A DNA stretch of 64,000 nucleotides from Bacteroidota bacterium. Its GTDB lineage: Bacteria > Bacteroidota > Bacteroidia > Chitinophagales > JADIYW01. The stretch's first letter is position 1. Each line of letters starts with the position of its first letter. Location: positions 905,923-969,922 of the forward strand of contig CAUJCO010000013.1 in the NCBI GenBank assembly GCA_963169645.1, in the 5' to 3' direction. Under the pieces are notes generated by a model. The model made no database searches, was not told the origin of the DNA, and saw only the letters and a program-made list of their open reading frames with translations. This document shows, one piece after another, positions 44,047 through 54,160 of this stretch. A program made the translations under genes and the position numbers.

Positions 44047-44422
44047 ACTTTGTGTTCGGAATTTTTGTTAAATAGATTACTTGTATTCGATAATATGTAG
44101 GTGTGTGTTGCCATACACTTAGGTGTAGATTGAAAAAATCATTCTCCTGAAAATGGGAATCACTGAGCGATAACAAACAAGATATATTGGAATCAATGGA
44201 CGACTGAAAGTTGCCGGATGCTATATATATTGCTGCGTTAGCGATAGAAGTGGAAATGTTTTTTTGATGGAAGGTTAGGTGCGTGGCAAAAAAAAACATT
44301 GCAACGAATAGCGCGGCACCGAGTGGCTTTGTGTGTGGCGGTGCAACGCCCAAAAATAATCAATAAGAGTTTTGAGAAACGTCAAATAATATTTTAAAAA
44401 AATAGTGCATCTTTGTCTTATT

Positions 44423-51964: not shown

Positions 51965-53113
51965 CTATTGTAAAATTTCTATTTCCAACAAAGTTCGTAC
52001 TTTTTCGGCTAATCTTATAACTTCATTTCTGTCGGCATTTACAATGGTAACATGGCCTAATTTTCTGTTGGGTTTGCTTTCTTCTTTTCCATATAAATGA
52101 ATATACACACCTTTCAATTGCATCAATTCCTCCATGTATTTCAGTTGGTATTTTCCTGTTTTATCACCAACAATATTAACCATGGCACACGGTTGTATCA
52201 TTTCTGTAGATGCCAATGGTTTGTTTAATAAAACACGTAGCAATTGCTCATATTGTGAAGCATAAAAACCTTCAATAGTGTGATGTGCTGAGTTGTGAGG
52301 TCGTGGTGCAATTTCATTAACCCATAACTCATCTTGTTGTGATAAGAAAAATTCAACGGCAAACAAACCGGCACTGTTAAAAGCATCGGCACATTGAATG
52401 GCAATCTGTTGTGCTTGTTTTTCTATTTCAGGATTGATATCGGCAGGAGAAATTAAAAATGAAACCAAATTACTTTCCGTAAATTCCATTTCGATAGCCG
52501 GATATACGGCGTTATTGCCATGTTGGTCACGTGCTACCAATACGGCCAATTCTTTTTTGCAAGCTACAAATTCTTCGATCATCAATGCATCATCAAACGG
52601 AATACTATTTGGATTCTCTAAGATAGATGCAACATCCGAGATGAACACACCTTTGCCATCATAGCCTCCGGTGCATGATTTGATAGCTACTTTTTTAAAG
52701 TTGGAAACGGTGAGTTTTTCAATAGCTTCGATTCTGTTTGCCACAACAAAAAATGGTGCGGTCGGTATGTTGTTTTGTTGATAGAATAATTTTTGTTTGC
52801 CTTTGTCTTGTATGGTTTTTAAAACATTCGGATTGGGGATAATTGTTTTTCCTTGTGCTTGTAATTCGATGAGTTTATCTACTTGGATATGTTCTATTTC
52901 CCAAGTTATTACATCCGAAATATCGGCTAATTTTTGAATGGCATCGGCATCGGTGATGCTGCCTACCAAATGCTTTTTGGCGATGCCGTGTGCGGGGCAG
53001 CAGGCATCTTTATCTAAAATATGAATGGCAACTGCTAATTTGGAGGCATTCTCGATGAACATTTTACCGAGTTGGCCACCGCCAATAATTCCGATAGTTG
53101 GGTTGTTGTGCAT
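51965..53113 (-). CDS. purK: 5-(carboxyamino)imidazole ribonucleotide synthase
   Basis: The 382-residue ATP-grasp enzyme starts at the ATG at 53113 (MHNNPTIGIIGGGQLGKMF). A TTG three codons earlier is in frame. The ATP-grasp core has AIKSCTGGYDGKGVF, the acidic metal site in LFAVEFF and WVNEIAPRPHNSAHHTIEG. It makes N5-CAIR from AIR, ATP and bicarbonate, the substrate of PurE. Confidence 0.96.
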   Translation of the reverse strand: MHNNPTIGIIGGGQLGKMFIENASKLAVAIHILDKDACCPAHGIAKKHLVGSITDADAIQKLADISDVITWEIEHIQVDKLIELQAQGKTIIPNPNVLKTIQDKGKQKLFYQQNNIPTAPFFVVANRIEAIEKLTVSNFKKVAIKSCTGGYDGKGVFISDVASILENPNSIPFDDALMIEEFVACKKELAVLVARDQHGNNAVYPAIEMEFTESNLVSFLISPADINPEIEKQAQQIAIQCADAFNSAGLFAVEFFLSQQDELWVNEIAPRPHNSAHHTIEGFYASQYEQLLRVLLNKPLASTEMIQPCAMVNIVGDKTGKYQLKYMEELMQLKGVYIHLYGKEESKPNRKLGHVTIVNADRNEVIRLAEKVRTLLEIEILQ

Positions 53114-53195
53114 GGTGTACAAAGATACGAATGATTTATTTCATCTATCCCAGAAAGCGATGTGTATTGGATAAAAATATGATTAAGAAAAGCAT

Positions 53196-53220
53196 AAAAA
53201 AAACGCCTCCAAAAGAGACG
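53196..53220 (-). terminator. Terminator of the tRNA-like RNA
   Basis: On the minus strand CGTCTCT and GGAGGCG (with G-T pairs, within 53204-53220) form a tight hairpin followed by T8. It ends transcription about 10 nt after the tRNA-like structure. Confidence 0.8.
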
Positions 53221-53229
53221 GTTGTGTTG

Positions 53230-53386
53230 CTGTAAGAGAAGGACTCGAACCTCCAAGAGGCGATTAGGAACTGCACAAAAAGTTGGTGGTCAACCCCTGC
53301 ACACTGAAGTGCTCTACACAGTCTTTATTTCGAACTCCTCACCCCCGAGACAAGAGGGCATGGCTGCCAAATTTCATCACCTTACA
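53230..53386 (-). ncRNA. tRNA-like structured RNA with 87-nt variable region
   Basis: Read on the minus strand, 157 nt make a cloverleaf outline. The acceptor TGTAAGG (53386-53380) pairs with TCTTACA (53237-53231). The D-arm is ATG/CAT with a Leu-type loop AAATTTGGCAGC. The anticodon-type stem CCCTC/GGGGG has the 7-nt loop TTGTCTC, whose middle bases read GTC (53351-53349). The T-arm is GGAGG/CCTTC with loop TTCGAGT. Between the anticodon and T arms lie 87 nt (53341-53255), far beyond any class II variable arm, closed by GAGG/CCTC and holding internal hairpins. Pyrimidine after the anticodon is atypical for tRNA. A promoter and a terminator flank it. It is not a tmRNA by any motif I know. Confidence 0.7.
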
Positions 53387-53433
53387 ATTTTAAGTATTTT
53401 ACAATGGTGAGATTGTTAATGAACTTGTTGATA

Positions 53434-53464
53434 CAAAATTAAGTAAATAGCTTTTTGTATGCAA
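53434..53464 (-). promoter_or_regulatory. Promoter of the tRNA-like RNA
   Basis: On the minus strand TTG (53464-53462) and TAATTTTG (53441-53434) are 20 nt apart, a full Bacteroidota promoter match. The expected start is near 53427, giving a leader of about 40 nt. Between this promoter and the YdeI-like gene, an imperfect inverted repeat around 53503-53533 (AACAAATA/TATTTGTT) is the only other structure. Confidence 0.75.
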
Positions 53465-53587: not shown

Positions 53588-54160
53588 TTAATTTCTTCGG
53601 AGTTGCTTAATAAGCAGCTTGTTTTCGCAGTCTAGTATGAGTTGTTTTAGTCTACGGAGCTTCGTTTCTTCTAATTTAGCACTGATAACATGCCAAGTAG
53701 CTTGTTTTCTATAGGAGTTGCTTTGTTTGCTAAAAAAATTCCAAGCAATGTTGTTTTGTTGAAATTGTTGAAGAAGGGTAAATGGAAATTCAATGTCTTT
53801 TTGTTCAAAGGAAGCTGATTTTTGTTTAGTAATATCGCGTGTGATAAATACATGTTTGCCTTGTTCGTGTACTAAGCCGGCTTCCATTAATTCCTGTATT
53901 CGCTTAATGTTTACATTGCTCCAGTTACTTCTTTTTCTTCGTGGTGTAATGCGATTGCAATACGATTCATCATCTATTTTTTTGCGAATACCATCAATCC
54001 AGCCAAAACATAATGCTTCATCTACTAATTGTTGCCACGTAATACTTTTTTTGCCCGATTTTTTATTATAAAAACCAATCCAAGCTTCGGTTGCTTTTAA
54101 GTGGTTTTTTTCAAACCATTTTCTCAATTCTCGCTGTGTTTCAAAAAAGATAGGTTGCAT
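53588..54160 (-). CDS. YdeI/OmdA-like protein
   Basis: This 190-residue protein has ETQRELRKWFEKNH and AWIGFYNKKSGKKSITWQQL, then DEALCFGWIDGIRKKIDDES and TPRRKRSNWSNVNIKRIQEL, the signature of the YdeI/OmpD-associated (bacteriocin-protection) family. A C-terminal helical OmdA part includes WHVISAKLEETKLRRL. Members are small soluble proteins of unclear biochemical role, sometimes linked with envelope stress. Confidence 0.88.
   Translation of the reverse strand: MQPIFFETQRELRKWFEKNHLKATEAWIGFYNKKSGKKSITWQQLVDEALCFGWIDGIRKKIDDESYCNRITPRRKRSNWSNVNIKRIQELMEAGLVHEQGKHVFITRDITKQKSASFEQKDIEFPFTLLQQFQQNNIAWNFFSKQSNSYRKQATWHVISAKLEETKLRRLKQLILDCENKLLIKQLRRN

Follow-up and report, generated by a model that had tools for sequence, protein, structure and literature searches.

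Bacterial AspRS recognizes an identity set comprising G73, the anticodon GUC, C38 and the base pair G2-C71 (PMC9976931; PMC6523644). Bacterial GatCAB reads U1-A72 on Asp-tRNAAsn, and G1-C72 together with U20a blocks tRNAAsp (PMC9976931; PMC4206432). AspRS and GatCAB act on tRNAAsn in the tRNA-dependent asparagine biosynthesis of Deinococcus, Thermus and Bdellovibrio, and GatCAB that occurs beside both AsnRS and GlnRS has been noted as possibly vestigial or tRNAAsn-based (PMC4206432). Among tRNA-like molecules with a long variable arm, the allo-tRNAs and selC* tRNAs, some of which have a GUC anticodon, show an 8/4 or 9/3 branch, a long D stem and charging with Ser or Cys (PMC7609411). Here we describe an uncatalogued tRNA-shaped RNA encoded on the minus strand (53386-53229) of a 64,000-nucleotide stretch of a Bacteroidota genome (hereafter the window), between a YdeI-like gene and purK.

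The initial annotation of this locus had proposed a minus-strand cloverleaf of 157 nt with a Leu-like D loop, good acceptor and T arms, an anticodon-type loop reading GUC followed by a pyrimidine, and 87 nt in place of the normal variable arm, and all of these elements were found at the positions given for them. The RNA body runs from T1 to G73 (157 nt, 53386-53230; minus strand, like all parts below) and is followed by an encoded C74; T1 to C74 (53229..53386) matched the covariance model of the family with 148.8 bits, with covariation in seven helices. The acceptor stem pairs TGTAAGG (53380..53386), whose U1, G2 and U3 are invariant in the family, with TCTTACA (53231..53237), whose A70, C71 and A72 are likewise invariant, and is followed by the discriminator G73 and C74 (53229..53230). 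The D arm (53360..53377) has a stem of 3 bp and a Leu-like loop, AAATTTGGCAGC, with G18G19, C20 and A20a. In the anticodon-type arm CCCTC-TTGTCTC-GGGGG (53342..53358), the loop UUGUCUC contains GUC (53351-53349), U37 (53348) and C38 (53347). The giant variable region of 87 nt (53255..53341), which consists of a base stem GAGG/CCTC, a 3-bp helix, an AATAAA/CUAA internal loop and a variable hairpin, separates this arm from the T arm GGAGG-TTCGAGT-CCTTC (53238..53254). A terminator with T8, also part of the annotation, was recovered by a terminator scan as an intrinsic terminator with a 7-bp hairpin (53196..53220, the hairpin itself at 53220-53204; one found against 0.3 expected). The consensus promoter held up in part: a sigma-70 scan of the promoter region remained at chance level with no significant site, and the sequence fits by eye a putative Bacteroidota-type promoter, TTG-N20-TAATTTTG (53434..53464), of the TTTG/TAnnTTTG type. 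The downstream neighbour purK (51965..53122, minus strand) is a separate unit past the terminator, and both purK and the upstream YdeI/OmdA-family gene (53588..54160, minus strand) lie outside the system. Elsewhere in the window, 44227-44322 on the plus strand encodes a Flavo-1 RNA of unknown function (Rfam RF01705, 51.8 bits), a kind already known in Bacteroidota.

Neither ARAGORN, used as a tRNA and tmRNA search, nor Rfam 15 gave a match at the locus; the tRNA models of ARAGORN and Rfam RF00005 did not recognise the RNA, Rfam with permissive thresholds returned chance-level matches only, and no earlier description was found in the open-licence papers searched. Since the single sequence folded no better than its shuffles (z=+0.73), comparison of homologues was essential. 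Relatives were detected by blastn in 40 of 100 genomes of the window's order, often in tandem, and a covariance model was built from 32 of these relatives. The model set true members clearly apart, most of them at 95-150 bits, from ordinary long-arm tRNAs, which scored at or below about 62 bits. Run on 150 genomes of the order, of which 113 are good, it located the RNA in 69 and 63, respectively. Members were also present in other orders, including Cytophagales and Saprospirales, and outside the class, with named records from Chitinophaga, Niabella, Dyadobacter, Spirosoma, Cyclobacterium, Algoriphagus, Belliella, Marivirga, Emticicia and Saprospiraceae; the Flavobacteriaceae genomes of the survey gave only tRNA-level scores. 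The RNA family is spread over much of the phylum Bacteroidota.

Covariation was strong. In an alignment of 69 distinct sequences, the seven helices comprise 32 pairs, which were paired in 96.8% of cells, and 398 double changes were counted, compared with 119 +/- 10 in shuffles and 49-71 with slid partners; this alignment had been fitted to the covariance model, and the original MAFFT alignment gave the same picture, with double changes in 19 of 34 pairs. All tRNA arms covaried strongly across many families. The family cloverleaf has a 7-bp acceptor stem, D, anticodon and T arms, a T loop of the form TTCRANY, and G18G19. The variable region ranges from 39 to 123 nt. From its 4-bp base stem it continues through a bulge and a 3-bp helix to a conserved GAUAAA/CUAA internal loop, which presumably resembles the UAA/GAN motif, and a hypervariable hairpin. 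Three readings had been offered in the initial annotation, namely a tRNA-mimicking regulatory RNA, an evolved tRNA relic and a tRNA with an insertion. The proposal withstood both the covariation check in related genomes and the comparison with Rfam, in which no named RNA was matched. The label of tRNA mimic proved correct, with a purely regulatory role possible, and relic and chance insertion are excluded by the covariation in seven helices, the conserved helices and loop of the arm, and the invariant AspRS and GatCAB determinants described below. We accordingly give next to no credence to a decayed tRNA-Leu with an acquired insertion, whether relic or mobile element: the Leu-like D loop and the tandem copies in several genomes would suit such an origin, but the family combines strong covariation with invariant functional bases and has kept its position beside one gene across orders. 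Phage and plasmid records contained no match to the RNA, and a mobile-element origin was rejected on this ground. The RNA is a new family derived from tRNA.

Tandem arrays of three to four copies with differing variable hairpins were observed at G087:C55, G409:C4, G052:C137, G363:C84, L114 and L101, and near-identical copies sometimes alternate in such arrays. A separate locus, L204 (538-615; G166:C23:55337-55414), encodes a 78-nt member that lacks the long variable arm and has the loop CUAUCUC (A34), still with U1-A72, G2-C71, C38 and G73; its neighbour is a dinB-type polymerase-like gene, not asnC. This short member is possibly an intermediate or a degenerate form.

We then compared the conserved bases with the determinants of AspRS and GatCAB and with the features of decoding tRNAs. 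The AspRS set alone (G73, GUC, C38 and G2-C71) was complete in 158 of 159 distinct full copies, U1-A72 was present in 158, and the two occurred together in 157; all 159 copies had A20a and therefore lacked U20a. Because half of the copies had been fetched with a pattern that fixes the loop, the count was repeated on copies found by whole-sequence or model search alone, and 67 of these 68 carried the full determinant set. G10 was the sole bacterial AspRS determinant not kept (A10 in 127, U10 in 23 and G10 in 9 of 159 copies). At acceptor pairs 4 to 7, free variation with compensatory changes was seen, which would be expected under selection on the end of the stem. The family departs from the conserved U33 and purine 37 of decoding tRNAs: in the unbiased set U33 was found in 58 of 68 copies, and position 37 was never A but U, C or G, with U or C in 66 copies and U37 in 62. 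The window genome also has a canonical tRNA-Asp(GUC) with A37 and G1-C72, and its tRNA-Asn has U1-A72. All 30 ordinary tRNA genes found there encode the discriminator and C74, one of them the full CCA, and the 3' end of the RNA family (G73-C74, no CA) follows the same rule. As far as sequence can tell, the RNA looks like a tRNA under selection for AspRS and GatCAB but not for the ribosome.

Other identities accounted for these bases less well. Leu identity was rejected, since the discriminator of tRNA-Leu is A73 and the RNA has G73. Ser identity would fit G73 and the long arm but leaves the invariant GUC unexplained, and an 8-bp acceptor stem with a Y(-1)-G73 pair was discarded because A(-1) occurs. 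Replacement of a missing tRNA was likewise rejected, as the window genome has tRNA-Asp(GUC) in addition to the 30 ordinary tRNAs. The full cloverleaf, the good D/T loop contacts and the GUC anticodon could also belong to a decoding tRNA, either an accessory one for GAC/GAU or, if amidated, one for deliberate Asn-for-Asp mistranslation, and engineered tRNAs with variable-arm hairpins can stay translationally active (PMC7590224). We judge this improbable, because the canonical tRNA-Asp is already present in the window genome, the AspRS bases are invariant but neither U33 nor a purine at position 37 is conserved, and the arm varies freely up to 123 nt.

To relate the RNA to GatCAB, we considered genomes in which AsnRS and GlnRS are both present and GatCAB is without a decoding job, with the prediction that GatCAB is retained where the RNA is retained. 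AsnRS was found in 40 of 40 genomes checked (of the 150). Among good genomes with GlnRS, 45 had both RNA and GatB, none had the RNA without GatB, 4 had GatB without the RNA, and 18 had neither (p=8e-13). Counting each genus state once gave 32, 0, 4 and 11 in the same order, and the association persisted in a within-family permutation (p=2.5e-4). The result was the same in a sample of 40 genomes that had been picked ahead of the large survey (18/20 vs 0/9). There was no association among good genomes without GlnRS, in which GatCAB is needed for Gln-tRNA (17/1/26/2). Overall, GatB was present in 66 of 69 genomes with the RNA (62 of the 63 good ones); of the three without a GatB match, two are about 85% complete and one is in 530 contigs. 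Genomes that lack both the RNA and GatCAB occur separately within several groups, among them the window's genus (G001) and two genera each of families f21 and f19. Conversely, GlnRS and GatB were found without a detected RNA in ten genomes, four of them good; seven of the ten belong to one family (f13), whose RNA variants could score below the cut-off used. At one locus (G428:C1:1520131-1526268), the RNA and gatB are about 4.5 kb apart on one contig, which could be chance.

The co-occurrence could also be indirect, if a non-discriminating AspRS makes Asp-tRNAAsn for GatCAB and the RNA marks such lineages but is no substrate. Bacteria with AsnRS, GlnRS and GatCAB, including some Bacteroidetes, have been explained in this way (PMC4206432), and the U1-A72 of the tRNA-Asn in the window genome would fit. 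This explanation leaves the U1-A72 and the whole AspRS set on the RNA without a reason, as it does the joint loss of RNA and GatCAB within families and in the window's genus, and we regard it as quite unlikely. Non-discriminating AspRS typically has a histidine at a position in its N-terminal region; the AspRS N-terminal regions here showed no histidine at that position, at most a weak sign against this explanation. Genomes that lack both AsnA and AsnB showed no enrichment of the RNA (9 of 63 good genomes with the RNA and 6 of 50 without it lack both, with paralogues included among the AsnB-like matches), and the window genome carries AsnA and AsnB-like genes. The RNA is thus not simply the sole asparagine route, and a role as the only Asn source was not supported. 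Together, the conservation and the GatCAB co-occurrence suggest that the RNA is charged and acts in aspartate/asparagine metabolism.

The genomic neighbourhood links the RNA to a regulator. The same Lrp/AsnC-family gene was the first gene upstream, in divergent orientation, at 81 of 134 loci (a few of which duplicate one another), usually 95-220 bp from the RNA, and the downstream genes differed among lineages. The best solved relative of the regulator was E. coli AsnC (2cg4, E=5e-33, compared with 8e-10 for Lrp), and NCBIfam ranked AsnC first with a score of 168, below the model cut-off of 227. In E. coli, asnC is divergent from asnA. The window genome has the regulator elsewhere, not adjoining the RNA. 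A palindrome like TTGNAANTANTTNCAA with at most two mismatches was found upstream of 48 of 125 copies, compared with about 10 in shuffles; this enrichment is no more than suggestive, since the pattern was picked after part of the same data had been viewed. Such AT-rich palindromes lie at about -60 to -140, including in the window's genus (L002), in which the regulator gene does not adjoin the RNA. Three genomes (G009, G011 and G014) have the AsnC-type orthologue and AsnA but no RNA, and it is possible that AsnA has replaced the RNA route in them.

Linkage to a regulator gene is also what a regulatory tRNA mimic might show, one serving as a decoy or sensor of AspRS and perhaps GatCAB, or acting on other targets through the GUCUC loop or the variable arm, with charging being incidental. 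The RNA's own putative promoter and terminator, the conserved internal loop of the arm, and a GUCUC loop that is conserved also outside the identity positions, with U37 in 62 of 68 copies, are consistent with such a role. Regulation alone predicts neither the invariant U1-A72 and the encoded C74 nor a need for GatCAB precisely in those genomes where the enzyme plays no part in decoding, and we consider a purely regulatory mimic unlikely.

The analysis establishes how the RNA folds, that its determinants are conserved, that its gene is linked to the regulator and that it co-occurs with GatCAB. For the role, we put at about an even chance a non-decoding, tRNA-derived RNA on which AspRS would place aspartate and GatCAB would amidate it, giving an Asn-RNA that would supply or help to sense asparagine under the control of AsnC. 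The RNA, which stands alone, would be processed like a tRNA and receive CCA; AspRS would load it with aspartate, and GatCAB would convert the Asp-RNA to asparaginyl-RNA. The altered anticodon loop and the giant variable arm would keep it off the ribosome, hence a role in asparagine supply or sensing, not in decoding. If the ribosome used an Asn-RNA with a GUC anticodon, errors would follow, and pyrimidine 37 and the giant arm would make sense as safeguards against them. The asparagine may then be released or sensed, and its destination could be free asparagine, a sensor or another acceptor. In most genomes, the RNA gene is divergent from an AsnC-type asparagine-responsive regulator and probably regulated by it. 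Against this proposal, the bases at 20a/20b and the giant arm might hinder AspRS or GatCAB. More specifically, and with somewhat less than even confidence, the RNA may be a dedicated biosynthetic carrier, run by the AsnC-type regulator in much of the Bacteroidota. Its sole job would be to keep aspartate bound during the conversion to asparagine by GatCAB, or to signal this reaction. If so, tRNA would be split by function in living bacteria into a decoding copy and a structurally marked copy that makes an amino acid, and the retention of GatCAB in many Bacteroidota that have both AsnRS and GlnRS would be explained. The family is widespread and uncatalogued, and the role proposed for it is concrete and testable; tRNAs with very large variable arms could be built on it as a natural chassis.

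As a pathway, this would be a new form of tRNA-dependent amidation. It implies the same enzymes as tRNA-dependent asparagine biosynthesis on tRNAAsn and shares with it U1-A72 and the presence of GatCAB despite AsnRS and GlnRS; it differs from that route in that aspartate would be carried not by tRNAAsn but by a non-decoding RNA of its own, marked by GUC, pyrimidine 37 and a giant variable arm. An AspRS of the discriminating type would be enough, and the cell would continue to need AsnRS. The allo-tRNAs and selC* tRNAs are similar in their long variable arm and, in part, GUC anticodon, but the RNA family is set apart from them by its 7/5 branch, the short D stem of 3 bp, the Asp identity and an arm that is much longer. 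With ordinary tRNA-Asp(GUC) it has G73, GUC, C38 and G2-C71 in common and differs in its class II core, U1-A72, pyrimidine 37, variable U33 and variable region of 39-123 nt. Like tmRNA, it joins a tRNA-like end to a large non-tRNA domain; unlike tmRNA, it has a complete anticodon arm and no reading frame or tag, and the insert lies in the variable region. The non-proteinogenic tRNA-Gly of staphylococci, which serves cell-wall synthesis, is likewise a tRNA for a non-ribosomal task, with a different amino acid, structure and pathway.
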